Positions 811-50,890 of a stretch of 64,000 nucleotides of DNA are shown piece by piece. The position numbers and the translations under genes are program-made. Position 1 is the first letter of the stretch. The number at the start of each line of letters is the position of its first letter. Source of the stretch: a virus; the IMG/VR virus record IMGVR_UViG_3300021091_000020, positions 1-64,000 of that record. One strand, written 5' to 3'. The notes beneath the pieces were generated by a model, which worked only from the letters and a program-made list of their open reading frames with translations, did no database searches and was not told where the DNA came from.

Positions 811-844
811 TGCTTTGATCTGAAGCATCGAATACTTATATTTG
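811..844 (+). promoter_or_regulatory. Bacteroidota-type promoter upstream of the M-R-M operon
   Basis: The -33 element TTTG (814-817, within GCTTTGATC) is followed by a 19-nt spacer and the -7 element TATATTTG (837-844). This matches the Bacteroidota housekeeping consensus TTTG/N19-20/TAnnTTTG. It begins just after the tmRNA 3' end and ends 26 bases before the ATG at 870. The same GCTTTGATC element is used at 3741, 4018 and 5669. Confidence 0.8.
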
Positions 845-869: not shown

Positions 870-1769
870 ATGAAGTTTTGGGAAGAAGTAGATACTACAA
901 ACAAGTATAAAGAATTATTTGAAAGGAACCTGGAAAGATTTCCGAAGCGTATTGATGAAACGGGAAACATTGTGGACGATACATCTATGATTGGTAGATT
1001 AGGATTTTTACCGTCAAGTCTTTGGAAGCCAGACTCCACCATAACAAAAGAACTCAAAAGAATAATAAACGATACAGCACAAGTTAGACCATCATTGAAC
1101 TCAAACCGTAGTGATAGAAGGCATGGAGTAAATGATGGGAAGGCAAGTGTATTCAATCCACACCTAACTCAAATGATAATTTCAGCATACTGTCCGCTTC
1201 AGGGTAGAATATATGATCCGTTTGGTGGTGGTGGAACGCGTGGATATATGGCTACTAAAATGGGGCACAAATATCATGGAGTAGAAATCCGAGAAGAAGA
1301 AGTAGAAAGAATAAAGGGAGAAATGAAAACTTGGGGAATAGAGTTTGATATGGTTCTCGGTGATAGTTCAGAATACAAACCAAAGGAAACATTCAACTTT
1401 GCATTGACTTGTCCGCCTTATTATGATTTAGAACTATATTCCAACATGGAAGAAGATTTAAGTAATGCAGCTTCATACGAAGAATTTTTGGGTATGTATA
1501 AAAAAGTTATCCAGAATGTGTATGATTGTCTTGAACCAAATTCATTTGCAGTATTCGTGGTTGGTAATTTCCGAGACGAGAGTGGTGAGTTAATTCACTT
1601 CAATGGTGACACCATCCGTATTGCAAAGGAAGTTGGTTTTATTCTATGGGATGAAATTATATGGCAAGGTGCTTCAAATGTTGCACTCACTCGTTGTGGT
1701 AAGTTTGAAGTAAATAGAAAGTCTGTTCGTATGCATGAATATGTTGTAATACTAAAAAAGGTTTCTTAA
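870..1769 (+). CDS. DNA methyltransferase (N4-cytosine/N6-adenine type), M1
   Basis: A 299-residue S-adenosylmethionine-dependent DNA amino-methyltransferase. Motif I is DPFGGGGTRG at about residues 115-124 and motif IV is TCPPYY at about 180, in the gamma-like order I then IV; a CPPY motif is most typical of N4-cytosine enzymes. A frame-extended TTG at 858 is rejected, because TTGGAG at 858-863 is the ribosome site for ATG 870. The gene follows the promoter at 811 and is one base from the nuclease gene. It is clearly paralogous to the methyltransferase at 2459: both share a DPF-GG--RG motif I, an IREE segment and CPPYY-LE-YS. I read it as the first modification enzyme of a type II restriction-modification operon. 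Target sequence unknown. Confidence 0.85.
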   Translation: MKFWEEVDTTNKYKELFERNLERFPKRIDETGNIVDDTSMIGRLGFLPSSLWKPDSTITKELKRIINDTAQVRPSLNSNRSDRRHGVNDGKASVFNPHLTQMIISAYCPLQGRIYDPFGGGGTRGYMATKMGHKYHGVEIREEEVERIKGEMKTWGIEFDMVLGDSSEYKPKETFNFALTCPPYYDLELYSNMEEDLSNAASYEEFLGMYKKVIQNVYDCLEPNSFAVFVVGNFRDESGELIHFNGDTIRIAKEVGFILWDEIIWQGASNVALTRCGKFEVNRKSVRMHEYVVILKKVS

Positions 1770-1770
1770 T

Positions 1771-2454
1771 ATGCGGATAAACAAATACCTAAAAGAAAAA
1801 CTGACACCACTCATAGATGAAATAAGTGTGTCTATGACTGATAGTTTACAATTAAAGATTTTCGGAATAGAAGATGATAGTAAACAATCTATACTGATTC
1901 AAATGGGTAATGTTTGGGAAACATTTTGGAACACCGTCTTTTCGGAGTATGCAACGAATCTATTAGAGAATGGAAACCTGATAAAGGTAGATGGTAAGAA
2001 TAGACAGATAGACCATTTATTTTCAAGTAAACAAAACGGTGACATTCTTTATTACTTTGAATCAAAATGTAACCTAAACTTTGACTCCGAAAAAACACCG
2101 GCATCAAATAGAAAGGTAATGGAAGTATCGGAAACGATAGAGAAGGAAAATCCTAACAAGAAAACACTACATGGTTATTTCATACCATGTGTGATTGATG
2201 TTTCACCAGAAATGGTAAAGAGATATAAACATATAAAACTATATGGTGTTCGTGATCTTTTATCAATCATTGATGGCTTACCGTTTACTCTAAAAGAATT
2301 TGAATACTATTTACAAACCGAAGGTAGAAAGACATTCTATAAAAAATATAGATGGTTTTGGGAAACAAATGAAGGCAAACAGGAACTGATTGACTTCTTG
2401 GAAAAGAAGGGATATACTGTTTCAAAGAAGAAGAAACCAAAGATTAAGACATGA
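1771..2454 (+). CDS. Putative type II restriction endonuclease (PD-(D/E)XK)
   Basis: A 227-residue protein with a plausible PD-(D/E)XK nuclease core: Asp81 in RQIDHLF, then Glu97 and Lys99 in YYFESKCN, on two predicted beta strands 16 residues apart, with an upstream acidic helix around Glu50. Length, soluble character and position between two DNA methyltransferases fit a type II restriction enzyme. It starts one base after the M1 stop, and its own stop lies inside an inverted repeat overlapping the M2 start, so the three genes are probably translationally linked. Two methyltransferases would suit an enzyme with an asymmetric site, where each strand needs its own methylase (known for such systems; inference here). 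The C-terminus is very Lys-rich. An alternative is a non-restriction phage nuclease. Confidence 0.65.
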   Translation: MRINKYLKEKLTPLIDEISVSMTDSLQLKIFGIEDDSKQSILIQMGNVWETFWNTVFSEYATNLLENGNLIKVDGKNRQIDHLFSSKQNGDILYYFESKCNLNFDSEKTPASNRKVMEVSETIEKENPNKKTLHGYFIPCVIDVSPEMVKRYKHIKLYGVRDLLSIIDGLPFTLKEFEYYLQTEGRKTFYKKYRWFWETNEGKQELIDFLEKKGYTVSKKKKPKIKT

Positions 2455-2467
2455 CAAAATGTCATGT
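2449..2467 (+). repeat. Perfect inverted repeat spanning nuclease stop and M2 start
   Basis: ACATGACA (2449-2456), AAA, TGTCATGT (2460-2467) is a perfect 8-bp dyad. It contains the nuclease stop codon (TGA 2452-2454) and the putative M2 start codon (ATG 2459). A 17-base identical copy lies at 3607-3623. It could be a regulator binding site or an RNA hairpin that gates translation of M2. Confidence 0.75.
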
Positions 2468-3346
2468 ATGATTTTGGAAATACCGAGAAAAGTTTTGGCA
2501 AGAACATTAAAAGATATATTCACTGTTCCACCAATATCCGTGCTTGACGTAAAGCAGAAGTATTGGAAAGACCGGCGCAAGTATTGGTTGAGTATGGGTA
2601 TTCAATCAGAATTAGGGCGTGAAGAAAATCTACTTTCCCTTTCAGAATTATTACAACTGAAACAAAAGTCCACATCCATATTTGATCCTGTATTATGTGA
2701 AGTTATGTATAGATGGTTCACTGGCGAAGGTGACACCATATTTGATCCATTTGCAGGTGGCTCTGTTAGAGGAATTGTTGCATCCAAAACAAATCGTAAC
2801 TACATTGGAACAGACATAAGAGAAGAACAAGTATTATCAAACACAGAACAATCAAAACAACTATGTGATAATTACATACCAGAATGGATATGTTCAGATG
2901 CTTTGGATTGGGATGGTGGTGAGTATGATTTTCTTTTTACTTGTCCGCCATATTATTCCCTTGAAGTTTATTCAGAGTTGGAAACAGATTTGTCCACAAT
3001 GACGGATGAACAGTTTGAAAAAACATATGATGCCATCCTAACTAAACATTTAACACAATTAAGGAATAATCGCTTCTGTGCAATAATCATTGGTGACACA
3101 AGAGACGATAAAGGAATGTATAGAAAGTTTACAAATAAAACTATTGATATATTTGAAAAGAACGGTTGTGGTTTATACAATGACTTAATTCTATTACAAG
3201 AACCAGCAACCGCTGCTATGAGGGCATTCAAGTATATGAACAGTAGTAGAAAGATAGCCAAGTGTCACCAGAATGTTTTAGTATTCGTTAAGGGTGATCC
3301 TAAATTGGCTACTGAAAGATTAAAACCATTCGAGGACATAACATGA
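2459..3346 (+). CDS. DNA methyltransferase (N4-cytosine/N6-adenine type), M2
   Basis: About 295 residues. Motif I is DPFAGGSVRG (about residues 98-107) and motif IV TCPPYY (about 162), followed by SLEVYSELETDLS as in M1. The open frame runs upstream into the nuclease gene, but the first sensible ATGs are at 2459 and 2468; 2459 lies four bases after the nuclease stop. It is a paralogue of M1 (870-1769), so the operon is M-R-M. The two enzymes probably protect the two strands, or two halves, of one recognition site (inference). It overlaps the next small gene by ATGA at 3343. Final residues do not suggest any fused domain. Confidence 0.84.
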   Translation: MSCMILEIPRKVLARTLKDIFTVPPISVLDVKQKYWKDRRKYWLSMGIQSELGREENLLSLSELLQLKQKSTSIFDPVLCEVMYRWFTGEGDTIFDPFAGGSVRGIVASKTNRNYIGTDIREEQVLSNTEQSKQLCDNYIPEWICSDALDWDGGEYDFLFTCPPYYSLEVYSELETDLSTMTDEQFEKTYDAILTKHLTQLRNNRFCAIIIGDTRDDKGMYRKFTNKTIDIFEKNGCGLYNDLILLQEPATAAMRAFKYMNSSRKIAKCHQNVLVFVKGDPKLATERLKPFEDIT

Positions 3347-3579
3347 CAACAGAAGTTACAATACACGAAGGTCTGAAATTGTGTGTCCATGATTACATTC
3401 AATGTATATGGGAAAACTCAAACAATTTCCGTAGGACATGGAAACTCATTCATATATCCGATATGAATTACTATTTCAGAGATACCGGCGATGGTTCCGT
3501 TGGTATTATGAACCGTGACAAATTTCATTCACAGATTGATACCGGCTACTATGGCATCATTCCGTCAGATAGAAGTTGA
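3343..3579 (+). CDS. Small protein of unknown function at end of M-R-M operon
   Basis: A 78-residue soluble protein that I do not recognise. Its start overlaps the M2 stop (ATGA), so it is co-translated with the restriction-modification genes. The C-terminal half is rich in Tyr, Gly and Asp (FRDTGDGSVG, DTGYYGIIP) and looks beta-rich. It lacks a helix-turn-helix signature, so it does not resemble a classical restriction controller (C) protein, although its position would suit an accessory or regulatory role. A nine-codon open frame (3583-3612, MNYKKIYDT) follows and ends inside the second copy of the inverted repeat. Confidence 0.6.
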   Translation: MTTEVTIHEGLKLCVHDYIQCIWENSNNFRRTWKLIHISDMNYYFRDTGDGSVGIMNRDKFHSQIDTGYYGIIPSDRS

Positions 3580-3606: not shown

Positions 3607-3623
3607 ACATGACAAAATGTCAT
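3607..3623 (+). repeat. Second copy of the ACATGACAAAATGTCAT dyad
   Basis: Identical over 17 bases to 2449-2465, with dyad arms ATGACA/TGTCAT. It again contains an in-frame stop codon (TGA 3610-3612 of a nine-codon frame), as in the first copy. It brackets M2 and the small gene after it. The following 110 bases up to the promoter at 3741 hold no gene; CTCCTAACTCC and AACTCCTTAA are short repeated words there. Confidence 0.65.
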
Positions 3624-5414: not shown

Positions 5415-5424
5415 GGAAACAACC

Positions 5425-5661
5425 ATGTTATATTCAAAAACAATCAACGATAAACTTGCAGATGCTTGGGGCGACTATTCAAAGCTCATCCGTGAACAGA
5501 GTGAGTGTATAAACACTAATAGACAAATGACCAAAAAACAATATCAAGACTTCACCAGACGAAAGGAAACCGTCTTATATCGTATTGCTTTGTATAGTGA
5601 CGCACTTGACCAGATGAAAATGGGTGAAGGTGTGCCAACCAAAAATCTTTTCGGTATCTAA
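5425..5661 (+). CDS. Small hypothetical protein, helical
   Basis: 78 residues, no recognised family. AAGGAAACAACC lies directly before ATG 5425. Two predicted amphipathic helices (DKLADAWGDYSKLIREQS and the segment around RRKETVLYRIALYSDAL) suggest a helical hairpin. It is the last gene before the promoter at 5669, whose -33 box starts eight bases after the stop. Confidence 0.55.
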   Translation: MLYSKTINDKLADAWGDYSKLIREQSECINTNRQMTKKQYQDFTRRKETVLYRIALYSDALDQMKMGEGVPTKNLFGI

Positions 5662-5668
5662 ATAGTGC

Positions 5669-5699
5669 TTTGATCTTTCCCAAAAATGCCTTATATTTG
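5669..5699 (+). promoter_or_regulatory. Bacteroidota-type promoter
   Basis: TTTG (5669-5672), 19-nt spacer, TATATTTG (5692-5699) in the same GCTTTGATCTTT...AATGCCT frame as at 3741 and 4018. It drives the gene set starting at 5733, which includes the ArdA-like gene. Confidence 0.8.
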
Positions 5700-5732
5700 T
5701 AACATAATAAATAACCAACAAAGGAAACAACC

Positions 5733-6038
5733 ATGACGAAGAAACAGACGGCAAATGCAATGACAACCATCGAGAATTGTATTGGTGAATTGTCTTATGA
5801 TGAACTGGCAATTTTGCGTAGTATTGTGAACTCACGCATAGAATTTAAGCAACATGATAAGATGCTGACTATCAAAAACAAATTGCGTCCAGGTATGCCT
5901 TGCAAGGTAAACCACGCAAGAGTAGCCGGAAAGAAATTCACCGTTAAGAAAGTAAACAGAACAAAGGCGGTTCTAACTATGGAAGGAACAAAAGGAAACT
6001 GGACCGTTCCAATTTCACTAATTGAAATTATTAAATAA
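5733..6038 (+). CDS. Hypothetical protein with SH3-like C-terminal half
   Basis: 101 residues. The N-terminal half (residues 1-45) is helical; the second half is basic and beta-rich (LRPGMPCKVNHARVAGKKF, TVKKVNRTKAVLTMEG, WTVPISLIEII), like small SH3/KOW-type barrels that bind nucleic acid or protein. This is resemblance only. ATG 5733 follows AAAGGAAACAACC. First gene of the operon that also carries the ArdA-like protein 14 bases downstream. Confidence 0.6.
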   Translation: MTKKQTANAMTTIENCIGELSYDELAILRSIVNSRIEFKQHDKMLTIKNKLRPGMPCKVNHARVAGKKFTVKKVNRTKAVLTMEGTKGNWTVPISLIEIIK

Positions 6039-6052
6039 TAAGGAAAACAACC

Positions 6053-6601
6053 ATGAGTAAAGAACAATTTTTTATCAATGCAAAATTGACCGTGCAAGGA
6101 TGTGTCTATGATTTCCAATTAGACTTGGAAGATGGGTGGGAACCCGAAGATCTAATAGATAGCATACAAGAACAATTTGATTGTGCTGTCCATGACGGCG
6201 ATATTGTATTGGCAGACTGGATTTCTGGCATACGTCCAGAGGACGTTGACCACATAGACATTACCGAAGACATGGTGGAATTTGATTTAAGCGAATTGCC
6301 TGATTTCTTGAATGGCGATTGGGATAAAATTTCAGAATTTGCAGAACACTACTATAGCAGTTATTATGATATAGATGTATTCGAGGCGGCAAGCAACCTT
6401 GGTATTCCATTCTCTGATGTAGATGAGGCGTATAATGGCGAACACCGTTCTGACGAGGAATTTGCTGAGAGTATATGTGCAGAGTTTGGGTATATTCCAA
6501 GGGACTTTCCAAGTTGGATTGCTATTGATTGGGAAGAAACTGCACGCTCAATTATGTATGACTACGAAGAAGATAACGGCCACTATTTCAGAAGATTTTA
6601 A
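6053..6601 (+). CDS. ArdA-like antirestriction protein
   Basis: 182 residues, very acidic, as expected of ArdA, a DNA mimic that inhibits type I restriction enzymes in the cytoplasm. The C-terminal two thirds carry the family pattern: helix FEAASNLGIPFSDVDEAYNG, a DEEFAESICAEFG helix, then WIAIDWEETARSIM and a Tyr/Phe-rich end (GHYFRRF). Length is close to the usual 165-180. ATG 6053 follows AAGGAAAACAACC. It sits in the same arm as the phage restriction-modification operon, so this phage may both restrict competitors and evade host restriction (inference). Recognition is by eye from conserved C-terminal residues. Confidence 0.72.
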   Translation: MSKEQFFINAKLTVQGCVYDFQLDLEDGWEPEDLIDSIQEQFDCAVHDGDIVLADWISGIRPEDVDHIDITEDMVEFDLSELPDFLNGDWDKISEFAEHYYSSYYDIDVFEAASNLGIPFSDVDEAYNGEHRSDEEFAESICAEFGYIPRDFPSWIAIDWEETARSIMYDYEEDNGHYFRRF

Positions 6602-6614
6602 TACGGAAACAACT

Positions 6615-6995
6615 ATGAACATAAAACCAAACACACCAGGAACACCAAGTCTCTTTCTAGCAATACATGAGCTTGCTCGTAAGAAACTACCAGAACTGGC
6701 AAAGAAGGTAGGTAACAATATCAATACAGACTGGACTATAAAATTTGGCAAAAAGTATGCAAAGATTACAAACGGTTATACCAGAAAAGACGGAATGAGA
6801 ACCGAATCCGTTTGGGGTTTCGTTGTCCTCAAAGAATGCACGGTAGATGGGATTGATTACAAACCCGGTGACTTGCTCAAAGCCGCTTCACACAAGGCAC
6901 CTGCAAAACACGCAAGAGGAAATATCATGGATGGCACAGCAGACTACGATATTTGGGGTCCAACTTATTTACCGAACAGGAGAACATCATGGTAG
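6615..6995 (+). CDS. Hypothetical protein
   Basis: 126 residues, basic. The frame is open back to 6423, inside the ArdA-like gene, but ACGGAAACAACT before ATG 6615 fixes the start. N-terminal helix IHELARKKLPELAKKV, then a beta-rich part (YAKITNGY, SVWGFVVLKEC) and an Ala/His/Lys-rich segment (KAASHKAPAKHARGN). It looks like a small conserved accessory protein of plasmids and phages, but I cannot name a family. Overlaps the next gene by seven bases. Confidence 0.6.
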   Translation: MNIKPNTPGTPSLFLAIHELARKKLPELAKKVGNNINTDWTIKFGKKYAKITNGYTRKDGMRTESVWGFVVLKECTVDGIDYKPGDLLKAASHKAPAKHARGNIMDGTADYDIWGPTYLPNRRTSW

Positions 6996-14839: not shown

Positions 14840-16507
<1,668 letters not shown>

Positions 16508-29867: not shown

Positions 29868-30872
29868 TTAATTATTTTTCCAAAAAGAATATATGCCCTT
29901 ATCCAATTCATAGTTTTCCCAAATGAATTGTTCTCGCATGGGTTGAGTTTTTGCCCACTCCCACATTTGTTTCAAACCTTCGTCAAGAAGTGTCTTGTCT
30001 TGATAATCTAATAGTCTAACGGACTTATCCCATGTTGGATGAGCATATTTTACCTCATGTCTTGGTTCAAGGTAAACGGTATCGTAATATCCAGTAACCG
30101 AAGATAATACTTGATTTGCGAAGTTAATACTTTGTTCATGGGTTCCACCAACGTTTATTATCTGTTTTGATGCTCTGTCATCAACGGCGGCTTTCCAAAG
30201 AGGTTCAAGACAATCATCTATGTAACTAAATGATCGAACTTGATTACCGTCACCATATATGGTCATTGGTTTATTGTTGAGTATTTGATGCATCCATATA
30301 CCCAACACATTTCTATACTTGTCCCAAATGTTTTGTTTGATACCGTAAACATTGTGTGGTCTTATTATGCACCAATCCAATCCATGTTGTTCACCTGCAA
30401 TTTGTATGTCTTGTTCACATGCAAACTTAGCAACACCATACGGATCTATTGGAACTGGTTGATGGTCTTCATCAAATGGTGGCGTTCCATGACCATATAC
30501 TGCCATTGTTGATGTGAACACCAATCTCTTTATATCATGTTTAATACAGTTGTTTACAATGTTGGCAGTTGCTAATAGATTATTCTCGTAGTTGAAACAC
30601 CTAATAAACGGAGACAACCCTTCGGCTGCGTAAGCTGCCATGTGATACACATAAGTTGGTTTGTGTTTATCAAATATATCATCTATACCTTTTCTATCAA
30701 CACAATCTACTTCATAGAAGGTTGCATCCTTATTTACATTTTCGATATAACCACCGGATAGGTTATCCACAATAACAACATTGTATTCTGGTTTATTCTC
30801 TATTATCCAATCTGCAAGTCTTGAACCAATTAGACCTGCACCACCAGTTATCAATATAGTTTCTTTATTCAT
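29868..30872 (-). CDS. NAD-dependent sugar-nucleotide epimerase/dehydratase (extended SDR)
   Basis: 334 residues from ATG 30872; the open frame continues upstream into the glycosyltransferase gene, but this ATG overlaps that stop by eight bases and starts the Rossmann fold at once. GGAGLIGSR (10-18) binds NAD; Ser121/Thr122, Tyr145 and Lys149 (PYGVAK) form the catalytic set; HNVYG and SFSYIDD complete the signature. Likely a UDP-glucose/GlcNAc-type epimerase supplying activated sugars to the block. Confidence 0.88.
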   Translation of the reverse strand: MNKETILITGGAGLIGSRLADWIIENKPEYNVVIVDNLSGGYIENVNKDATFYEVDCVDRKGIDDIFDKHKPTYVYHMAAYAAEGLSPFIRCFNYENNLLATANIVNNCIKHDIKRLVFTSTMAVYGHGTPPFDEDHQPVPIDPYGVAKFACEQDIQIAGEQHGLDWCIIRPHNVYGIKQNIWDKYRNVLGIWMHQILNNKPMTIYGDGNQVRSFSYIDDCLEPLWKAAVDDRASKQIINVGGTHEQSINFANQVLSSVTGYYDTVYLEPRHEVKYAHPTWDKSVRLLDYQDKTLLDEGLKQMWEWAKTQPMREQFIWENYELDKGIYSFWKNN

Positions 30873-31653
30873 ATCGTATTCCTTTAATTGTATTTCCTTT
30901 GGGTGAATGTGAGTTTTCTTTTGTTCTGAATGGATTGAAACCCCATTTGTATGTGAATGTTTCAGCAGCATCCCGCTCACTTTCCTTGAACCGTTCTCCT
31001 TCTGATCCATTCTTTGTTGCCATACTTCCGAAGTGATAGAAGTTTAGTTTTCTACTTCTTAAAAAGTTACACCCAATCAGTTCCAATTTTAGAAAGAAAT
31101 CCCAATCACAAATGAATGGTGAATTGTATATCGTATCAAAGCCACCAACTGCCATATAGTATTTCTTTTGTATGATGAAAGGAAATATCTCACCATCGTT
31201 TGTTAGTTTATTCTCTCTATGATTTTGTTCTTCATTTGTGTATCGTTTGAAATCAAAATCATCTACACCACCAAAATTAAGAGTAACGAAATTAAATATA
31301 CTTGGAGTTCTTTCAATTTGATTTGGTGTTATGATTAACTTATCTTGAAAATCCTTTTCGAGTACAGTGTCCCAATCTTTCGGAAAAATATTGTCATCAT
31401 TTACAATCAACACCCATTCATTTGTTGAATTATACACACCAAGATTTAGAGCATATTGCATACCAGAGTTTTGTTCCAATGGTATGAAAGAAACTCTGTT
31501 ACTATATTCATCAATGATATGTTGTGTTTCTTCAACGAAACCATCTATCACAACTATTATTTCATTCTCATACTTTTGATTTTCCAATGCAGACTTCAAA
31601 CAAATATCCAAACACTTCGGATTTCTGTATGACGGTATTATTACTGAAATCAT
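30865..31653 (-). CDS. Family 2 glycosyltransferase
   Basis: 262 residues. Canonical GT2 start ISVIIPSYRNPKCLDICLKS, IIVVIDGF, the metal site in VLIVNDDNIFP (about 88-98), an acceptor-side segment GGFDTIYNSPFICDWDFFLK with the catalytic acid, and a C-terminal RTKENSHSPKG tail. It transfers one sugar to an unknown acceptor. Overlaps both neighbours (4 and 8 bases), so the block is one transcription and translation unit. Confidence 0.86.
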   Translation of the reverse strand: MISVIIPSYRNPKCLDICLKSALENQKYENEIIVVIDGFVEETQHIIDEYSNRVSFIPLEQNSGMQYALNLGVYNSTNEWVLIVNDDNIFPKDWDTVLEKDFQDKLIITPNQIERTPSIFNFVTLNFGGVDDFDFKRYTNEEQNHRENKLTNDGEIFPFIIQKKYYMAVGGFDTIYNSPFICDWDFFLKLELIGCNFLRSRKLNFYHFGSMATKNGSEGERFKESERDAAETFTYKWGFNPFRTKENSHSPKGNTIKGIRYE

Positions 31654-32339
31654 ATTTTACTCCAATCTGTTAGTGGTGATAACCAAGCAGTTTCACCATG
31701 AGTTGAATAACCCGGAACCGAAGTTACTAATATACGATTTTTTTCTCTCAATTCCAAGAACATTTTATAGTCGTCTGGATAGTGACCTCTGTTTGTCCAC
31801 TTTCTCAAAACTTCTTCATCTTCTTTTAATACCTTAACAGTAGATGCAAATGTCATCGTTGTGCTGTTGGTTATTTTCCAATGGCATGATTTTGATAAAA
31901 ATAGTTTTGTATATTCGCCACCATCATCATCTATCTGTGGATTTCCACCACGACTTGCTGGGATGTATTTATCCGGATGGTCATACAGACTCAAATACTC
32001 TGCACCCAAATCAATACCTTCAACCAGGATGTTTTCGGAACCTGGTCTATGTAAATAATCATTTTCCAAAAAGTATATTATATCATCTTCATTTTGTTTC
32101 AATGCCCAATCTAGTGCAAGATTGAATGTTCCTGCACCATGACCAATGGAAACCTTTTGAATACCATCAACATATTTCAGTATCGTTTGTTCTGTGGTAT
32201 CTGAAACATTATCCGCAATAATATGAAAGTTATCTCTACCAAATACTTGAACTGCATTTCTTAAACAGTTTTCATTTGTTATGTATTCTGGTTTAACCTT
32301 GTTGTAACCAGCATCTGATATTCTATAAACTATTTTCAT
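31650..32339 (-). CDS. Glycosyltransferase, GT-A type
   Basis: 229 residues. KIVYRISDAGYNKVKPEYIT opens a nucleotide-sugar fold; FLENDYLH (about 88-95) is the metal-binding acidic site and HPDKYIPASRGG a loop typical of a phage/cyanophage GT subgroup. No second domain. Substrate unknown. Starts 15 bases after the GT-B gene. Confidence 0.7.
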   Translation of the reverse strand: MKIVYRISDAGYNKVKPEYITNENCLRNAVQVFGRDNFHIIADNVSDTTEQTILKYVDGIQKVSIGHGAGTFNLALDWALKQNEDDIIYFLENDYLHRPGSENILVEGIDLGAEYLSLYDHPDKYIPASRGGNPQIDDDGGEYTKLFLSKSCHWKITNSTTMTFASTVKVLKEDEEVLRKWTNRGHYPDDYKMFLELREKNRILVTSVPGYSTHGETAWLSPLTDWSKI

Positions 32340-32354
32340 TTAGTTAATTTTATT

Positions 32355-33320
32355 TTATTTAACATGACTTAATACATATTTAGCGAGTTTAGTTGTAGTT
32401 AGTTCTGATTTTGTATATGATACTAACTTATCAATATAATGTGAATACAAATTGTAAAAGTCATCATCTATTGGTAAATTGTTTATCAAATTTAAATCTC
32501 TATTCATTATCATAGTATTCCTATCATCATATTGAAACTCACCACCCATATTAAATAAATCGTATATGCCTGATTTTTTATAGTATTCAATCAGAATTTC
32601 TTTTGGGTAAGTTGTACAAATAGTTGGTGGACATTTTTCAATATCCAAAAATAAAGGCATACAACCTGTTGAAATGATTTCATAATGGCGAAGACAATCC
32701 CAACCAGATTTTTTCCAAGTAAATCCAAATAAAGAAACTGCATAATCTGTAAAGTATTCGTTTTCATCATTGAATATAAAAGTTTCTGCAACACCAGGAA
32801 TTACATGAGCAACTAACTTTTCTTTTTGTAATACACCGCGAACAATTTTATTATCTGGCTGTGCAAATGATATTGGCTTTATGAATGGATATTTGTAATA
32901 ATCATCTAATAAAAATTCACGTTTGAAATATATTGTGTTTAATATGTATTCACTTGCCAAATCTGTTTCGTCTTGACCATCCAATACAATTATATTATCT
33001 TCATTGTAATAATGGAATACAATATCTTTTAGATCTGAATTTCTTTGTATGTTACCGTAAATAACCGCATCAAAGTATTTGTTTTTTATTTTATTCTCTA
33101 TGTCACTTCTATCAGAATTATTAGGTGGCAATGAAGCGTAATATGTAAACCCTCTACCATGAAATCTATTAACAAGCATATTCTTATCAATATCATCATA
33201 CATATACCACAAAGGATTGTAGTCTACAACTTCAACACCGTCTATATTTAAAAGTCCATGAAAAACTGCATCGGACAGAAAATCATTTTGTGAATTATTT
33301 GCAATAAAAAGTATTTTCAT
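32355..33320 (-). CDS. Glycosyltransferase, GT-B (exostosin-like C-terminus)
   Basis: 321 residues from ATG 33320 (an open frame to 33350 runs into the preceding gene). N-terminal Rossmann start MKILFIANNSQND; the donor-binding half carries LFGFTWKKSGWDCLRHYEII and STGCMPLFLD, the E-x(6-7)-G-x-x-P pattern that holds the nucleotide sugar in exostosin-like and GT1/4 enzymes. Acceptor unknown. Confidence 0.72.
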   Translation of the reverse strand: MKILFIANNSQNDFLSDAVFHGLLNIDGVEVVDYNPLWYMYDDIDKNMLVNRFHGRGFTYYASLPPNNSDRSDIENKIKNKYFDAVIYGNIQRNSDLKDIVFHYYNEDNIIVLDGQDETDLASEYILNTIYFKREFLLDDYYKYPFIKPISFAQPDNKIVRGVLQKEKLVAHVIPGVAETFIFNDENEYFTDYAVSLFGFTWKKSGWDCLRHYEIISTGCMPLFLDIEKCPPTICTTYPKEILIEYYKKSGIYDLFNMGGEFQYDDRNTMIMNRDLNLINNLPIDDDFYNLYSHYIDKLVSYTKSELTTTKLAKYVLSHVK

Positions 33321-33330
33321 TTTAATAAAC

Positions 33331-33942
33331 CTATCGTGTAAACAAAACATCTTTCTGCATTATTTTACCATTAATCACGTGATCATATATTGGTGTATTG
33401 TTTTCAAAACCAATACTATTCATGTAATCAATTACATCATCAATCTTCGGAGAATTTTTATTATATTCTACAACAGAACATTCCATTAAAATATAATCGG
33501 CGAATTGTAGTAAACTCGAACCACCTTTGATAATATCAATTTCAGAACCCTGCGTATCAAGTTTTATGAAATTGAAACGCATATTTGGTAACAAAGTATC
33601 AAGTGTTTTTGCATTTACCATGACTTCAATTACATTATCATCATTGAAGTGTTCGGTCAATTCTCTATAATAAGAATTACCAGTAGAAGTTAAATCATTT
33701 TTATTCATATAGTAACAAACATCACGTTCAATATCAGACAACAATGTTATATCATAGGTTGCAAACTCAATGCCTTTTAGTGATTGTTCACAATTGACAT
33801 TCGCCTCTATCATATGATATTTAGCATTCGGAAACAACTCATACATTGATAAAGTAAATTCGCCAAGATGAGCACCAATATCTAATACACTCTCTACATT
33901 TAATTCGGACAACTTTCTTAAATAAGCAAAATGATTTAACAT
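33331..33942 (-). CDS. FkbM-family methyltransferase
   Basis: 203 residues from ATG 33942 (a TTG at 33948 is the weaker alternative). SAM-binding VLDIGAHLGEFTLSM (about 18-32), the acidic residue in MIEANVNC, and the FkbM-specific FIKLDTQGSEIDIIKG (about 124-139). The family O-methylates sugars and related hydroxyls, so it may cap the glycan made by this block. Starts close to the previous gene's stop (TGATCATG). Confidence 0.86.
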   Translation of the reverse strand: MLNHFAYLRKLSELNVESVLDIGAHLGEFTLSMYELFPNAKYHMIEANVNCEQSLKGIEFATYDITLLSDIERDVCYYMNKNDLTSTGNSYYRELTEHFNDDNVIEVMVNAKTLDTLLPNMRFNFIKLDTQGSEIDIIKGGSSLLQFADYILMECSVVEYNKNSPKIDDVIDYMNSIGFENNTPIYDHVINGKIMQKDVLFTR

Positions 33943-33944
33943 GA

Positions 33945-34904
33945 TCAACCTAAATAAACATTCTTAAATATATTCATAACATTCTCTGGTGTATATTGAG
34001 TATATGCATTCCAATCATTTTTTGATGAAATTATTTCTTTTGCGTTTAATATCTTTTCAATTAAATCATCATAGTCTGAATATAATACACATTTATCTCC
34101 CAACATTTCAAGGTGAGCACCATCACATAATGCATCAGTACAATATGTTGTTGTAAATACTGGTTTATTTTTAACAGAAAATTCTGCAACCGTCAATCCA
34201 AAACTTTCACCACCATTTCTAGCATGAAGACAGGCATCACAAGTATTTATGAAACCAACTTTTCTTTCCATGTCAGTTGTTGCATCAAGGAATATAATAT
34301 TATCTATTCCTTCACAAAAAGGTTCAGAGTTCATAAATAAAAAGTAAATGTCTTTATATTTTTGAGCAACATCAATTACTGCCTTCTTTGCAAAATCTAT
34401 ATTAAAAGAAGTTGGTCCACCGTAATAACCAAATACAGTTGCGTCCTTTGGTATGTTCAAAAAATCTCGGTAATTCATATTGTGATCGTGTTTTAATATG
34501 TCTATCATGTGTGGAACATATGGCAATTCACCATCACTTGCTTTTTCTGATAACCACTTCGATACATAAGCATATACATCGCCATGTGGTTGTCTATATT
34601 GAAAAACAGAATGAACTACATTCTTTATTCCAGGAACAAGTAATCCGTCATTTGATCCACCCTTAATGTAATATATCAAATCTATTTTATTTTTACCAAC
34701 TATATTATTTACTTCAGAAAAGTTATCATAGAGTATTACTTCAAATTCACGATTGAATTTTTCGTAAGCAGACATATCGGCATTTCTATCTGAAACTATT
34801 ATTGATTTGTTACCAAGAATTTCTCTATTGTAATAGGCATAATCATATAAAGAAATTTCTGTTCCTCTAACACCAAGTTGGTTACTGTGAAATGCTATCT
34901 TCAT
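33945..34904 (-). CDS. Glycosyltransferase, GT-B family 4-like
   Basis: 319 residues. N-terminal KIAFHSNQLGVRGTEISLYD contains the GT4 glycine/acceptor motif (G-RGTE); the donor domain has YYGGPTSFN and, near 245, GGESFGLTVAEF, the E-x7-E retaining-enzyme motif. It should transfer a sugar with retained configuration. Short relative to typical GT4 (about 370). Confidence 0.82.
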   Translation of the reverse strand: MKIAFHSNQLGVRGTEISLYDYAYYNREILGNKSIIVSDRNADMSAYEKFNREFEVILYDNFSEVNNIVGKNKIDLIYYIKGGSNDGLLVPGIKNVVHSVFQYRQPHGDVYAYVSKWLSEKASDGELPYVPHMIDILKHDHNMNYRDFLNIPKDATVFGYYGGPTSFNIDFAKKAVIDVAQKYKDIYFLFMNSEPFCEGIDNIIFLDATTDMERKVGFINTCDACLHARNGGESFGLTVAEFSVKNKPVFTTTYCTDALCDGAHLEMLGDKCVLYSDYDDLIEKILNAKEIISSKNDWNAYTQYTPENVMNIFKNVYLG

Positions 34905-35482
34905 AACAAACTAATCTCCACATCATCTGAAAAGAAGATTATTCCTGTTCCAGTTATGTGTCCATAATCTGTTACATCCATTTTATTTTGTTCTACACCA
35001 TACCAAAATATTTCCATTCCTTCATTCAAATGTATATCATCCCAAATAGTAATACCTTTGTAATTATTATCAACTAACCAATCATAACACATTTGTTCAA
35101 ATTCACCAGTATGTGGTGCATCTATGAATATCATTTTTGAGTTTAGGATTTTTTCTTTGTATTCATCATCACCATTAAATTCGCATAACCTAAACGATAA
35201 GTTTTTTATATGAGACAAATCATTTTCTTTTACATCAACAATATCGTATGTAATAACATCATGGTTAGTTGCGGTTGCCAGTGCAACTGCAGATGTTCCA
35301 CAATGTGTTCCTATTTCAATGATAGGTCCATCTATGTTTTTTGCGAAGTATTTTAATAAACGATAATGTTCTTGTCCACTTGGTTTGTCATAGTAATCTT
35401 GATAACAACCTATAACTTTCATATCATCAGACATATCTATATCGTCTAATGTTTCATTGTCTAAATAAATAATTCTTGACAT
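34901..35482 (-). CDS. Class I SAM-dependent methyltransferase
   Basis: 193 residues. Rossmann motif PIIEIGTHCGTSAVALA (about 53-69), acidic residue in TYDIVDVKEN and MIFIDAPHTGEFEQM resembling the methyltransferase family 24 / cephalosporin-hydroxylase-like fold (FIDA-H). It likely modifies a sugar in the block. ATGA overlap with the GT4 gene. Confidence 0.75.
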   Translation of the reverse strand: MSRIIYLDNETLDDIDMSDDMKVIGCYQDYYDKPSGQEHYRLLKYFAKNIDGPIIEIGTHCGTSAVALATATNHDVITYDIVDVKENDLSHIKNLSFRLCEFNGDDEYKEKILNSKMIFIDAPHTGEFEQMCYDWLVDNNYKGITIWDDIHLNEGMEIFWYGVEQNKMDVTDYGHITGTGIIFFSDDVEISLL

Positions 35483-35483
35483 A

Positions 35484-36200
35484 TCACACCTTTCCTTTTA
35501 AAAATAATTTATATTCAGTTTCACTTGGCCACTCATTTGGATTACCGTATAATTTTGTAAACCATTCACTATATTTAGGAACATCTATTCCATTGAAAGC
35601 AGTTTCATATGTATATCCACCCCATTTTTTATCAACATAATTTGCATTAGCAGGTGAAGTCTCTGGTGGTTTAACATCATCGTTATTAGCAATACTGCAA
35701 TTAAATGCATTTGATATTCCTAATGTTTTTACTTCTATACCATTTAATTCACATCTATATTGATAATCATTATCTTCACATCCACCATAAACTATATTCT
35801 CATCAAATCTACCAACCTTTTCAAATGTATCTCTGTGTATTGCAAACGTTGAAAATGTAAAGCCGTTATTAAATGTACCACACAAGGTATTTGGATTGCA
35901 TTCTTTAAGCAGAACATCAAATATTTCTTCCGATATTCTTGCGTCTTCTTGTCCTATTATTATTTTTTCAAATCCATAATATTTAAAACCAATATCGCAT
36001 ATTAAATTCCATCCCCCAGCACATCCAACATTTTGTTTATTGGTGTGGATGATATATGGATTTATTTTATTTGATGATGTCTGTCTACCATTATCTATTA
36101 TTCTTAAATTGGTATTTGTGAACTGATTGAAGTCATACCATTGCTCGAAATAATTTATTGCGTTATATCCCAAAACAAAATAGTTATACATTAAATTCAT
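35484..36200 (-). CDS. Glycosyltransferase, family 2-like
   Basis: 238 residues. TNKQNVGCAGGWNLICDIGF (about 53-72) is the nucleotide-sugar stretch, IIIGQEDARIS the acidic metal site, and VGRFDENIVYGGCEDNDYQY the acceptor side with the catalytic Asp/Glu. An unusually short N-terminus (no clear first strand after MNLMYNYFVLGYN) sets it apart. Substrate unknown. Confidence 0.75.
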   Translation of the reverse strand: MNLMYNYFVLGYNAINYFEQWYDFNQFTNTNLRIIDNGRQTSSNKINPYIIHTNKQNVGCAGGWNLICDIGFKYYGFEKIIIGQEDARISEEIFDVLLKECNPNTLCGTFNNGFTFSTFAIHRDTFEKVGRFDENIVYGGCEDNDYQYRCELNGIEVKTLGISNAFNCSIANNDDVKPPETSPANANYVDKKWGGYTYETAFNGIDVPKYSEWFTKLYGNPNEWPSETEYKLFLKGKV

Positions 36201-37108
36201 TATTCCAATTCCTTAATAATATGTTCAATAACTTCTTCATCGGTTAAAAAAGGATCTAATACAACATGATCTGAGTTTGGAAAGTAATATTTTGGTCCTA
36301 ATTTTGGTTCATCTATTTGTTTCAAAACTCCTTTTGGTCCATAAAGTTGATGGATAAAATCTCCTGTTAGTATTGTTTTTGTACCAACACCTGCAGCTAA
36401 ATTCGCTAAACCACCTTCTGTCCCAACAAATGCATGACACATTTTAATAACTGACGCCTGGAATAATAGTGATAATGGCGATTCATCTTCAATATATTGT
36501 GTTTGATATTGACTAATTTCTTGCTCAAATCCAACAAATATGACATTAAATTTTTCTTCAAGTTTATCAACTATGTATTCAACATTTCGGTGTTTACCAC
36601 CATAGCCACGTAGTGGTATATCCACGGCATTCTCATATTGTTCTGGTGTAAATCTATACGTTTTTTCTTTCCAATTACGCATCACTGCTATAAATTTTTT
36701 ATTAGGATCAAACGGATGTTCTCCGGAACTCATTTGAGCTTCAAAGAAAACATCATAATCAAAATCTGTGTATACTTTATATCCAGAAGATGGATTCCTA
36801 ACTCCAGCAAATTTTTGAAACTCAATAGTTGGTGGTTCTAAAAATGATAATGGTTCCAATTTTACAATCTTGTCATACTTTGATGCGTCTATTTTACTAT
36901 GGGTAGGTGACGCTAACGGTATCTCTGAAACATATACATTATTTACGTATGGATTATTTTTTAAAAGTCTTGCAACTTGTGGAAACCCTATTAAATAATC
37001 AACATTTACAAATTGATTTTCTTGTTTTAACTTTTTAGCAATTGAAGATGCAAAAAGTATATCACCAAAAAATCCATGTGTTACTATTAAACAATTAGTA
37101 TTTATCAT
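36200..37108 (-). CDS. Glycosyltransferase family 9 (heptosyltransferase-like)
   Basis: 302 residues, GT-B. The GT9 start THGFFGDILFASSIAKKLK (about 10-28) includes the catalytic-type GD, and GTEGGLANLAAGVGTKT (about 234-250) is the ADP-sugar-binding signature, with HAFVGTEGG preceding it. The family adds heptose to lipopolysaccharide core, but distant members use other sugars. A one-base overlap joins it to the next gene. Confidence 0.82.
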   Translation of the reverse strand: MINTNCLIVTHGFFGDILFASSIAKKLKQENQFVNVDYLIGFPQVARLLKNNPYVNNVYVSEIPLASPTHSKIDASKYDKIVKLEPLSFLEPPTIEFQKFAGVRNPSSGYKVYTDFDYDVFFEAQMSSGEHPFDPNKKFIAVMRNWKEKTYRFTPEQYENAVDIPLRGYGGKHRNVEYIVDKLEEKFNVIFVGFEQEISQYQTQYIEDESPLSLLFQASVIKMCHAFVGTEGGLANLAAGVGTKTILTGDFIHQLYGPKGVLKQIDEPKLGPKYYFPNSDHVVLDPFLTDEEVIEHIIKELE

Positions 37109-37472
37109 ACGACTTTTCCTCTACAAAATTTGAATTTGTTTTTTCGTTTATTTCTTTTTTTATAGTAAATCTTAAATCATTTGTAATATACACATTTCTT
37201 GCGTAAAAAACAAATTCTTTATCAAATTGTTTTAATTTTTCTTTACCGCGAATTAAATCTTCTGTTTTCCATAATTCCACATTAATGTCATACAGTTTGT
37301 TAAATAAATCAGCTATGCCATCTATTGATAACAAATTTTTTGATAAACGATTTAATTCTCTGTATTCCTTGAATATATTTACTAGCTTCGTTTCATCTGA
37401 TATGTTTTCCATTTTTATCTTCAATATAGAAAGTTTATCCAGAAGTTCACCATTTGATATTTCTACCATCAT
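37095..37472 (-). CDS. DUF6165-like protein of glycan clusters
   Basis: 125 residues starting (M)MVEISNGELLDKLSILKIKM, a pattern I associate with DUF6165, a small helical family found next to glycosyltransferases. No catalytic motif; likely accessory. It overlaps the GT9 gene by 14 bases and is joined by ATGA to the gene upstream. Confidence 0.7.
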   Translation of the reverse strand: MMVEISNGELLDKLSILKIKMENISDETKLVNIFKEYRELNRLSKNLLSIDGIADLFNKLYDINVELWKTEDLIRGKEKLKQFDKEFVFYARNVYITNDLRFTIKKEINEKTNSNFVEEKSYDKY

Positions 37473-38200
37473 AGACGTATCTCATAATTTATTTCACTAC
37501 CATCCAACATTTTTAATTCTTCTTTTTTCAAAAATGGAATCATCTGTGGATATATGCCAAAACCATTTGATGATCCATACAAACCTGCAAACGGGATAAT
37601 ATCCGTTTCATCATTATCTACTAAATCTATACAATAAAATTTATCAAAATTATTAGAACTCATCCCCTCAAATTTCCAAGGAGTAACATTCATGTCCCCA
37701 TCCAATAGTTCAAGAAATGTACTTTTTTTCCAAATGGCAGTCATCAAACTTGTTCTCCATTTTTGTTCTTTTGTTATCTCTCGTATAAAAACATTATCAT
37801 TTACTTCAAGAGAAATTCCATTTCCAGGAGGAGAAGTTATGAACCTAACATAATCTATTTTGTTTTCAATGACATAATCTATTAAAGAACTTAATTGATT
37901 TTGATCAACATAATCAATCAATGCATAATCTTCTTGCATATAGATGAAGTAATCACAATCAATACCATTCAAAAATGTTTTAATCATATACGACCAATCG
38001 GTTGGACCGTTTGACTCCATATTGAACTTTACATTCTTTAATTTAAGTGATGTTTCAAACTTTGGAAATTCTGAATTTTCTGACAAATAATATATTGGAT
38101 ATGGACAATCTTTCCAATACTTATTAAATAATTGTAGTTGTATATCCCATAGGTATCTATACTTATCACAACTACTAACAATAACAGGTATATTATTCAT
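37469..38200 (-). CDS. Glycosyltransferase-like, GT-A
   Basis: 243 residues. Opens IPVIVSSCDKYRYLWDIQLQ, has a YFIYMQEDYALIDYVD acidic site (about 84-99; QED instead of DxD) and KWRTSLMTAIWKK acceptor-side Trp motif. This fits a GT2-related subgroup seen in phage and bacterial glycan clusters, not matched precisely. Substrate unknown. Confidence 0.68.
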   Translation of the reverse strand: MNNIPVIVSSCDKYRYLWDIQLQLFNKYWKDCPYPIYYLSENSEFPKFETSLKLKNVKFNMESNGPTDWSYMIKTFLNGIDCDYFIYMQEDYALIDYVDQNQLSSLIDYVIENKIDYVRFITSPPGNGISLEVNDNVFIREITKEQKWRTSLMTAIWKKSTFLELLDGDMNVTPWKFEGMSSNNFDKFYCIDLVDNDETDIIPFAGLYGSSNGFGIYPQMIPFLKKEELKMLDGSEINYEIRL

Positions 38201-38203
38201 TTC

Positions 38204-38833
38204 TTATCTCCTAACATATAAACCATCACCCCAGCCATTACCTGTATCAAAATATTTTACAAGTTCAAAACCGAGTGACTTCATATAATTGGTAAATTCT
38301 GGTTCAAGCATACAACCTTTATACATACTATCAAAATTCAATTCCGTATAAATGTAATCAATATATTGTATGTTTTTTAAGAAACCTTTTATGGCAAAAA
38401 CTTCAGCACCTTGAATGTCTAACATCAAAACATTATATTTATTCATATCAATTTTTTCTCTTTCAATGAGAGTGTCAATCGTTATACTTCTTAATTTAAG
38501 AACATCAATAACATCAGACATCGTTGGATAGTAATATGAATGTCTATCAAATTGTAGCATTGAAGATGATTGTAAATGATTTGATATATTAAAATCATAT
38601 TCAATCCCATCAACATCTGATACAAGTTCATTAAAAATTAAACACCCACTATCAACATTATTTTTAAGTTCAGAAATGATATTTGGATTTGCTTCCACAA
38701 ATATAAAATCCGATATACCAATTTGTTTGAGTTTCAAAAATTCTTTGGAAATAAAACTTCCAATTTGTATCAGACCTTTAAAATTTAAATCAAACTCTAA
38801 TTTCAATTCATTCAAATCTAATTCTTTTAACAT
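38204..38833 (-). CDS. FkbM-family methyltransferase
   Basis: 209 residues from ATG 38833 (a GTG at 38839 is less likely). GLIQIGSFISKEFLKL replaces the usual GANxG motif, so SAM binding may be atypical; IFVEANPN and MLDIQGAEVFAIKGFL (about 131-146) are the characteristic FkbM motifs. It probably O-methylates a sugar. Second FkbM enzyme of the block. Confidence 0.82.
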   Translation of the reverse strand: MLKELDLNELKLEFDLNFKGLIQIGSFISKEFLKLKQIGISDFIFVEANPNIISELKNNVDSGCLIFNELVSDVDGIEYDFNISNHLQSSSMLQFDRHSYYYPTMSDVIDVLKLRSITIDTLIEREKIDMNKYNVLMLDIQGAEVFAIKGFLKNIQYIDYIYTELNFDSMYKGCMLEPEFTNYMKSLGFELVKYFDTGNGWGDGLYVRR

Positions 38834-38835
38834 TA

Positions 38836-39798
38836 TCACAATTCCAATATATCAATAATTTTATTAGTTATATTCGGACCAGACGCGTTTTTAATATACC
38901 ACTCTCTCGCATTATTTGATATAAAATTTAAATAGTCATCATCGTTTATCACTTGATTGTATCTATCTATTATTTTATCTGCAAGTAATTGTGGATTTTT
39001 ATATCTATAAATTTCATCGAAATCGCAATCAACCGATATGTAATGGAAATCTGGAATAAGTTCATCGCTAGATTTAACTGCATATTTCGGTCTTATAGTT
39101 GGTATTCCCATCCCATACATTTCTATATCTCTAAAACAAAAATCGCCACATACATAACCACCACCAACTCCAAAACATAATGCAAGTTTAAATTGTATTG
39201 ATTCTTGAATGTAATCATCAAACAATAATGGACTATCACCGAAATAAAAACTATCCAATTTACTGTTTAAAATTTGTATAGACAATCTTCTATTAAATTC
39301 TACCATATTAGGATTACGATATATGCTACCACGCCAATATAATCTTTTGTCCAATTCTATTGAATTTCTATATTCTTTTATTGTTTCATAATTTTCTATT
39401 CCAAAATTCCAACAACTTTCTGGATAAACACTTGGTTTTATTTTATCAAGTAATTCTTTATTTTCTATTATTTGATTCCATAGTTGTTGATTATATTGTC
39501 CTATTGCTGCTCCAATGAAATTTTTAGATTTAGATAATTCAACAGTTAATGTTGGTGCATCACCGAAATCAAAAGTCTTAAATTTTTTTGTATCATCAAA
39601 TTCAAATATAATAATAGATCCTTGATTTATTAAGACATTACAATCGTTTTGATAATAAAACTTATCATCGCCATTCATATCATGGTGATTTATTTCATAT
39701 CTGTTCCCTAATATTTTTTTCAATTCATTTGTATTATGTGCATCAAATCTATGATTTGGAATACCTCTATGAAATGTGTATATGTTTAGTTTTTGCAT
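38836..39798 (-). CDS. Glycosyltransferase-like, GT-B
   Basis: 320 residues from ATG 39798. Motifs: IYTFHRGIPNHRFD at the N-terminus, LYWRGSIYRNPN in the middle, and CFRDIEMYGMGIPTIRPKYA (about 228-247), a donor-site E-x-x-G-x-P-x pattern similar to exostosin and GT90-like enzymes. Donor and acceptor unknown. Confidence 0.66.
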   Translation of the reverse strand: MQKLNIYTFHRGIPNHRFDAHNTNELKKILGNRYEINHHDMNGDDKFYYQNDCNVLINQGSIIIFEFDDTKKFKTFDFGDAPTLTVELSKSKNFIGAAIGQYNQQLWNQIIENKELLDKIKPSVYPESCWNFGIENYETIKEYRNSIELDKRLYWRGSIYRNPNMVEFNRRLSIQILNSKLDSFYFGDSPLLFDDYIQESIQFKLALCFGVGGGYVCGDFCFRDIEMYGMGIPTIRPKYAVKSSDELIPDFHYISVDCDFDEIYRYKNPQLLADKIIDRYNQVINDDDYLNFISNNAREWYIKNASGPNITNKIIDILEL

Positions 39799-39799
39799 A

Positions 39800-40531
39800 T
39801 CAATCCATAACAATGTAATTTTTACTTTTCAACCATCTAACATTTGCAAATTCAGTTTGAAATTCAGTAACATCAGCTTTCATATTTTTATAGCCGATGT
39901 GTCTTTCTTTGAAAGCATTTTCTATGTAGTATTTTTTTCCATCAAAGAAATCTTTTCTACCGTCATCATCTTTTTTATTCATATCACCATTGTCTTCGTG
40001 ATATAAACAATAGAATGTTCCGAGTTCATTTCTTTTTACGGGTATATTTGCCCAAACAAATCGTTCACGCAAATCTTCATCTTCATTACCCCAACCACGA
40101 TACTTTGGGTTGAACCCATTGATAGTTTCAAAGTGTTCTCGCTTCATACAAATAACTCCACCGTAAAATCTACTATCAATTTCATTTGACCATTTACGAT
40201 AACCGGCAGGTATGTCTGTATATTCTCTTGGAGACTTATTATCTTTGTCTAAAAATATACCAACTCTTGCAGGAAGAACTGGAATATCATCAACTTCATA
40301 TGAAACATCATCTGCAGGAACATAATCTACTTGATGAAATATAACAATATCGCCAGTTGATTTTCCGTATCCTACATTCTGAACACATGATATTTGAAAG
40401 TTATCGTTATTATTTTGTTCAGAAATTATTATCTCATAATCTTTACCGGAAAATACTTCTTGTAATCTTGGTAACAATACACTTAAATTATCTTCTCGGT
40501 TTCTATATGGTATTATTATTGAGTATTTCAC
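39800..40531 (-). CDS. Family 7-like galactosyltransferase-type enzyme
   Basis: 243 residues from GTG 40531; a TTG at 40537 is the alternative. It opens with SIIIPYRNRED. It has the two conserved features of GT7 (beta-1,4-galactosyltransferases): IPYRNRE at the start and FNPKYRGWGNEDEDLRERF (about 144-162), the GWGxEDDDL metal/acceptor site. It likely adds Gal or GalNAc to a sugar acceptor (inference). Confidence 0.8.
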   Translation of the reverse strand: MKYSIIIPYRNREDNLSVLLPRLQEVFSGKDYEIIISEQNNNDNFQISCVQNVGYGKSTGDIVIFHQVDYVPADDVSYEVDDIPVLPARVGIFLDKDNKSPREYTDIPAGYRKWSNEIDSRFYGGVICMKREHFETINGFNPKYRGWGNEDEDLRERFVWANIPVKRNELGTFYCLYHEDNGDMNKKDDDGRKDFFDGKKYYIENAFKERHIGYKNMKADVTEFQTEFANVRWLKSKNYIVMD

Positions 40532-40533
40532 AA

Positions 40534-41169
40534 TCAAACTCTCTTATATGATGCCTTTTTTCCATCATTTTCAATTAACTGAAACTTATTGTCTTTTAAT
40601 AATTTGTTTTGTATTTTCGATAAATCATAATAAGTAACATCATCGAATACAATATACCCACCAATAGAAATCCTATCCATAAAGAAATCAACTTCTGCCA
40701 TAACTTCGGATAGTGAATGTGGACCGTCAAGATGAACCAATGCATAGTTTGTATACATTGTTTTATCAATATCGTATATTGGAACACCGTCTTTATATTT
40801 ATCAAAAAATTCAGTATCTTCCAAACATATCAAATCAAATAATATGTTTTTTTCCATTGCAAGTTTGTAGAGTTTTATCATTGTATCATATTTCATTTGA
40901 TTGGTATAATCAAATCTAACTCTCGCCCCTTCCATAGAACTGTATATCAAGTTACCATACGGATCTATCGCAATGAATGGCCTTTTTGTATTATCGGTGT
41001 CCATACATCCTATCATCATAACGCCCATACCACCACCTTGTCTTAAACCAACTTCACAAACTATTCCGTCAACACCAACAATATCTTTTGCCGCATTATA
41101 CAAAACATTGTGATCATTATGATCAAACTCTAATCCAAACTGTTTTGCTCTTAAAACTATTGAACTCAT
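40534..41169 (-). CDS. SAM-dependent methyltransferase (TylF-like)
   Basis: 211 residues. GIVCEVGLRQGGGMGVMMIG (about 35-54) is the SAM loop, PFIAIDPYGN the acidic residue, and VHLDGPHSLSEVMAEVDFF (metal-site HxDG) resembles TylF/macrocin O-methyltransferases. Likely sugar O-methylation. Confidence 0.76.
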   Translation of the reverse strand: MSSIVLRAKQFGLEFDHNDHNVLYNAAKDIVGVDGIVCEVGLRQGGGMGVMMIGCMDTDNTKRPFIAIDPYGNLIYSSMEGARVRFDYTNQMKYDTMIKLYKLAMEKNILFDLICLEDTEFFDKYKDGVPIYDIDKTMYTNYALVHLDGPHSLSEVMAEVDFFMDRISIGGYIVFDDVTYYDLSKIQNKLLKDNKFQLIENDGKKASYKRV

Positions 41170-41193
41170 ATAAACTCCAATTAAAATTTAAAA

Positions 41194-41955: not shown

Positions 41956-41966
41956 TTAATATCACT

Positions 41967-43909: not shown

Positions 43910-43916
43910 ATCATCC

Positions 43917-50889: not shown

Positions 50890-50890
50890 G

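Follow-up and report, generated by a model that had tools for sequence, protein, structure and literature searches.

In a tailed phage, the tight three-gene operon at 870-3346 of the window (64 kb from the start of a 123.5 kb IMG/VR record, possibly a fragment) finds its best explanation in a type II-like restriction-modification module carried by the phage, a reading to which we give a probability of roughly 0.7. All three genes lie on the + strand. M1, a DNA methyltransferase of 299 aa (870-1769), is followed after 1 bp by R, a predicted PD-(D/E)XK endonuclease of 227 aa (1771-2454), and the stop of R is followed after 4 bp by M2, a second DNA methyltransferase of 295 aa (2459-3346). The start of M2 is best taken as the ATG at 2459; the longest ORF would begin with the TTG at 2390. 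The coordinates and residues given in an earlier note on this DNA are right, as is its description of three ORFs on the + strand in one tight operon. Restriction-modification, the function proposed there, is also the reading that we favor, on the basis of a fold model of R and of a conserved linkage between R relatives and methyltransferase genes in cyanophages. The features of a type II system found here are methyltransferases with their motifs, a predicted nuclease fold with catalytic residues, and the linkage of restriction and modification genes.

M1 and M2 both match the N6_N4_Mtase family (PF01555), M1 with 61 bits (E 2.1e-16) and M2 with 43.4 bits (E 5.1e-11), each above the Pfam gathering threshold of 26.7 bits. 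Motifs I and IV are intact in M1 (DPFGGGGTRG from 1215, CPPYY from 1410) and in M2 (DPFAGGSVRG from 2744, CPPYY from 2942), which bears out the earlier description of two CPPYY-type DNA methyltransferases flanking the nuclease. The phrog_12517 profile matches M1 at E 7e-59 and M2 at E 5e-84, and phrog_498 is also matched by both. The two proteins are 31% identical to each other and fall in two separate clades in a tree with their relatives. M1 groups with proteins from the viral loci L124 and L125, which match it along almost the whole length at 57% and 54% identity. The group of M2 contains proteins from L044, L045, and L046 (79%, 63%, and 62% identical). Thus, a recent duplication giving rise to M1 and M2 was rejected. 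Across 95% of its length, M2 also shares 47-48% identity with the methyltransferase domains of ParB-like phage enzymes (phrog_498/phrog_12517; for example, Listeria B054 gp77 and Enterococcus phiFL3A gp36). Many of these relatives have an extra N-terminal part, annotated as ParB-like in several of them, which is missing from M1 and M2. We did not find an annotated restriction enzyme in the neighborhoods of the relatives in Listeria LP041, Croceibacter P2559S, Bacillus G, and Microcystis Mel-JY01.

R falls in no Pfam family. It matches phrog_26553 (E 5.1e-50, residues 4-181 of 227), which is annotated as function unknown in PHROGs, and the GenBank relatives in the Synechococcus phages S-CAM8 and S-WAM2 are listed as hypothetical proteins. 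R belongs to this family and shares its invariant catalytic residues. Across an alignment of 27 R relatives, which are 34-47% identical to the window protein, E50, Q79, D81, E97, and K99 are invariant, so that the Asp81, Glu97, and Lys99 that the earlier note had named for its predicted nuclease (codons at 2011-2013, 2059-2061, and 2065-2067) are unchanged throughout. Invariance at this level of divergence argues for conserved catalysis. An AlphaFold2 model built with the 27 sequences (pLDDT 87.6, pTM 0.80) consists of a helix (38-60), strands (70-98), a helix (102-126), and a further strand (131-137). This is the alpha-beta-beta-beta-alpha-beta order of the PD-(D/E)XK core. In the model, D81 is placed between strands, and strand 92-98 has E97/K99 at its end.

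Foldseek of the R model against the PDB returned mostly PD-(D/E)XK nucleases, all of them weak (best E 1.9e-3, TM ~0.3, none at or below 0.001). They include Cas4-like ACE1, Card1, cap-snatching endonucleases, and the restriction enzymes EcoO109I, Nt.BspD6I, and BstEII. Among viral models (BFVD), the clear fold match is the S-CAM8 protein G8EXS7 (E 4e-18); the matches there also include M1HMA1 and A0A0P0YNF5, and three of the four top matches are unnamed entries. A PADLOC type II restriction endonuclease model matches R weakly (E 6e-5), and sequence searches of the PDB with R alone and with R profiles gave no meaningful match. R resembles the HinfI family (NF045831) weakly over its catalytic region (residues 56-118) and is not a member of it, at 18.3 bits (E 0.0011) against a cut-off of 175; the S-WAM2 relative scores even less, 11.9 bits. 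From the model and the conserved residues we predict that R is a PD-(D/E)XK nuclease, and we infer that it cuts DNA.

The genomic neighborhood of the R relatives carries much of the argument. In S-WAM2 and S-CAM8, an R relative 41-46% identical to the window protein is followed directly by a gene annotated as "DNA adenine methylase," which belongs to the Dam family (TIGR00571, E 8e-55 and 3e-49), a methyltransferase class unlike that of M1 and M2. Profile scans of IMG/VR for R returned up to 70 loci per scan, which were reduced to 51 distinct sequences. Within the available sequence, a Dam-family gene is present in 37/51 of these loci, from T4-like cyanophages and viral contigs, and lies mostly -4 to +34 bp away. 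Dam is mostly downstream of R and is upstream in some loci. Several of the 14 loci without Dam reach the end of the contig close to R. In the phage collection, the Synechococcus records with this Dam gene (E <= 1e-30) are exactly the six that carry R. In one record of 176.7 kb, R has no Dam beside it, but a Dam gene is located elsewhere. The distance matrices of R and Dam are correlated (Mantel r 0.81, with 0/2000 permutations as high), a result that is supportive only, because linked phage genes co-diverge without a functional bond. The recurrent pairing of R with unrelated classes of methyltransferase is what would be expected if R were a restriction enzyme, dependent on a partner for protection. 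In the cyanophage contigs L010, L091, L093, L100, and L110, which have the Dam-R order, a separate TSPPYYGLRDYG-type methylase of ~310-360 aa is encoded upstream.

The phage in the window differs from the cyanophages in that two PF01555-type methylases flank R, where the cyanophage phrog_26553 loci have one Dam-family neighbor. Dam (TIGR00571) was not found in the record of the window phage (G000, 123.5 kb, possibly a fragment), and M1 and M2 are therefore the available partners of R. The same three-gene order, which the earlier note suggested looking for in related phages, is absent from the 51 distinct R loci, and a search with the R profile within ~3 kb of 80 M1-family loci found none. The M1-R-M2 order is thus unique to the window phage among the loci searched. 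R itself was sought in bacterial and archaeal genomes by two pattern-based scans covering 84,980 species, and in plasmids by tblastn, with no match. Because divergent members can escape such scans, a virus-only distribution holds within this search; within the searches made, the R family appears to be confined to viruses.

The presence of two methylases raises the question of which one serves R. Granted that the operon is a restriction-modification system, there is about an even chance that R is the cognate of M1 or M2 only, in a conventional M-R pair whose site is palindromic, and that the other methylase is a bystander. This is a sub-hypothesis of the restriction-modification explanation and is compatible with it. 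It agrees with the single Dam methylase beside the cyanophage R relatives and with the placement of M1 and M2 in two different clades. A related phage contig of 68 kb (G001, of which L044 is a part) points the same way. There, M2 starts at position 161 of L044, straight behind its own promoter (90-120), with neither M1 nor R in between, as if M1-R had been gained ahead of M2 as a unit in the window phage or lost in its relative. Since G001 ends shortly 5′ of M2, the comparison with the window operon is limited. Against a bystander role, M2 has been kept 4 bp from R, and known systems can use two methylases per site, as in DpnII, where DpnM and DpnA serve one site.

A separate point, for a single cognate as well as for the restriction-modification reading in general, comes from L046, where the M2 relative is preceded by a candidate nuclease of its own. 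A 189-aa ORF (5422-5991), unrelated in sequence to R, is immediately followed by the M2 relative (5992-6867, 62% identical). Its model (pLDDT 83.8, from three sequences only) has weak fold matches to NaeI (the best, E 3.8e-3), DpnI, PvuII, and NhoI, and several low-probability oxidoreductase matches rank alongside these restriction enzymes. In L116 and L119, relatives of this ORF lack a neighboring methylase of the M2 kind. A PvuII/NaeI-like nuclease with an M2-family methylase is a possible second phage restriction-modification pair, and we treat this model-based candidate as a lead only.

The methylases may also have nothing to do with R. M1 and M2 would then be independent anti-restriction methylases, shielding the phage against restriction enzymes of the host, and R a separate early nuclease, acting in host-DNA degradation or recombination, that shares their operon. 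Both methylase clades have members in phages without R, and the nearest members of each show no R copy. We did not find R in L124 or L125, where the M1 relative lies near a gene that looks from its sequence like a cytosine-5 methylase, nor anywhere in the 68 kb of G001, where M2 follows directly on its own promoter. Either M1 or M2 could thus be a plain anti-restriction methylase. We nevertheless consider full independence unlikely. The R relatives repeatedly adjoin a methyltransferase of another class, in both orders and with correlated divergence, and a free-standing host-degrading nuclease would need no such neighbor.

More doubtful still is the earlier suggestion that two methylases indicate an asymmetric, type IIS-like site, of which M1 and M2 would methylate one strand each. 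Many asymmetric-site systems do have the layout seen here, with one nuclease flanked by two methylases. R is small, though, and its 227 aa with one core fold leave little space for recognition by a domain of its own. In its relatives, a single adjacent Dam-family methylase, of a kind normally specific for the palindrome GATC, fills the partner role. Both the M1 clade and the M2 clade have members that stand alone, without R, so that the co-occurrence of the two methylases can be explained without an asymmetric site. The weak fold matches would also suit an R that has degenerated, is catalytically inactive, or acts as a DNA-binding regulator, a reading that the invariance of the catalytic residues across 27 sequences makes very improbable.

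Returning to the restriction-modification reading, motif counts were of little help in finding a recognition site. Many six-base palindromes are depleted in the window, including TATATA (0 observed against ~83 expected), TTATAA (0/59), GATATC (0/29), and GAATTC (0/33), and shorter motifs are reduced as well (GTAC 27/162, GANTC 76/206, GATC 112/233). With so many palindromes depleted, no single recognition site can be assigned, and such strong avoidance indicates that methylation by the phage itself gives it no broad protection. Dam-family enzymes normally methylate the palindrome GATC, and GATC as the site of R is a guess taken from the cyanophage partner. GATC is abundant in the cyanophage contigs with R, as would be expected if it were protected, although the count is no proof. 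Inference of the site from missing motifs was rejected, as R contigs that lack a neighboring Dam show no strong depletion of GATC.

The operon has its own promoter, as the earlier note had it. The sequence TTTGATC-N16-TATATTTG at 814-844 (+) has four exact matches in the window (at 814, 3741, 4018, and 5669) and none in 100 shuffles, and the same class of promoter occurs several times in L044, 5′ of genes. It resembles the -33/-7 promoter type of Bacteroidota, and the host of the window phage is therefore probably a Bacteroidota bacterium. Directly 5′ of the promoter, outside the module, is a complete tmRNA gene (455-806, +), identified by ARAGORN (tag GNTTSYAMAA) and Rfam (RF00023, 144.9 bits, E 7e-57). 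No tmRNA was found in the related 68 kb contig G001.

At the other end, the operon may extend into a 78-aa ORF from the ORF list (3343-3579, +), which shares 4 bp with M2 at the M2 stop. The related phage has a relative of this ORF at L044:3340-3618, where it is not beside M2. A Pfam match to rve_2 was below threshold and was disregarded. Within the operon, the junction of R and M2 contains an inverted repeat, ACATGACA AAA TGTCATGT (2449-2467, +), a perfect 8 bp repeat with a 3-nt loop that spans the R stop and the M2 start. The predicted RNA fold of 2435-2480 has an energy of -14.6 kcal/mol (z -5.4). The palindrome, ACATGACAAAATGTCAT, recurs as a 17-bp copy at 3607-3623, 3′ of the 78-aa ORF, and a 15-bp version is present in the related phage (L044:4831-4845). 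The hairpin could serve as an operator, as an attenuator, or in occlusion of the start codon.

Other genes in the window also touch on DNA modification. Three more divergent methyltransferase-like proteins are encoded around the DNA polymerase gene, on the - strand (49822-50940, 50894-52516, and 55815-57038). They have the common motif SPPYF...E.Y...TQS and PF01555-like counterparts in G001. Together with a threonine-dehydratase-like protein (58849-59595), they are possibly a DNA base hypermodification set. The phage also encodes a GroEL chaperonin (14861-16504, +; phrog_5725, E 2e-169), part of whose gene is ~78% identical in DNA to Bacteroides phage DAC16 and its relatives. A series of sugar-related genes on the - strand (29871-45341) includes a match to a nucleotide-sugar epimerase (29871-31010) and glycosyltransferase-like genes (35487-36200, 42590-43909, and 43920-45341).

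Complete restriction-modification pairs are best documented in algal and amoebal viruses, and the methylases of tailed phages are mostly described as orphans. Chloroviruses (CviAI) and Marseilleviridae (mel_015/mel_016) encode GATC restriction-modification systems (PMC7253447, PMC7019647), in which a virus-owned restriction enzyme likewise adjoins a methylase, a likeness of gene layout. The host chromosome is attacked in chloroviruses (PMC7019647), and rival viruses are the proposed target in marseilleviruses (PMC7253447). In melbournevirus, the GATC methylase lies beside a nuclease without a recognizable domain (PMC7253447, PMC7019647), a pair that resembles the R-Dam pairs of cyanophages. 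These viruses infect eukaryotes and the activity of their systems is known, whereas that of R is predicted. Jumbo phages have predicted Mom-REase fusions directed against host or superinfecting phage DNA (Iyer et al., PMC7824862), which are likewise predicted phage-owned units of modification and nuclease. In those, a Mom acyltransferase is fused to the nuclease, whereas here the methylases are separate and the nuclease is unfused and of another family. A limited open-access literature search found no paper that gives the R family a role in restriction, which does not by itself prove novelty.

Under the restriction-modification reading, R would cut a short site when it is unmethylated, and methylation of that site by M1 and/or M2 would protect the phage's own genome. 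The targets during infection would be host DNA that lacks this protection and/or the DNA of a co-infecting phage or plasmid; such destruction of host or competitor DNA, as proposed in the earlier note, is plausible. The module looks chimeric, joining a cyanophage-type R to methyltransferases, one or both of which come from phage lineages that are otherwise seen without R. The shared recognition site, the cognate (M1 or M2), and the cellular target are inferred. In a broader and more tentative view, which we put at somewhat short of even odds, R would represent a virus-confined family of restriction enzymes that switches partners, with Dam in cyanophages and two CPPYY enzymes in a probable Bacteroidota phage. 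It would act as a portable restriction-modification weapon against rivals or the host chromosome, and M2-type methylases would likewise recruit unrelated nucleases, as in L046.

These results propose a function for an unnamed family of phage proteins that is present in dozens of cyanophage contigs. They predict a testable R-Dam pair in S-CAM8 and S-WAM2, T4-like phages of Synechococcus, and open phage-on-phage restriction to experiments on phage isolates. They also suggest that phage restriction enzymes can switch their methylase partner.
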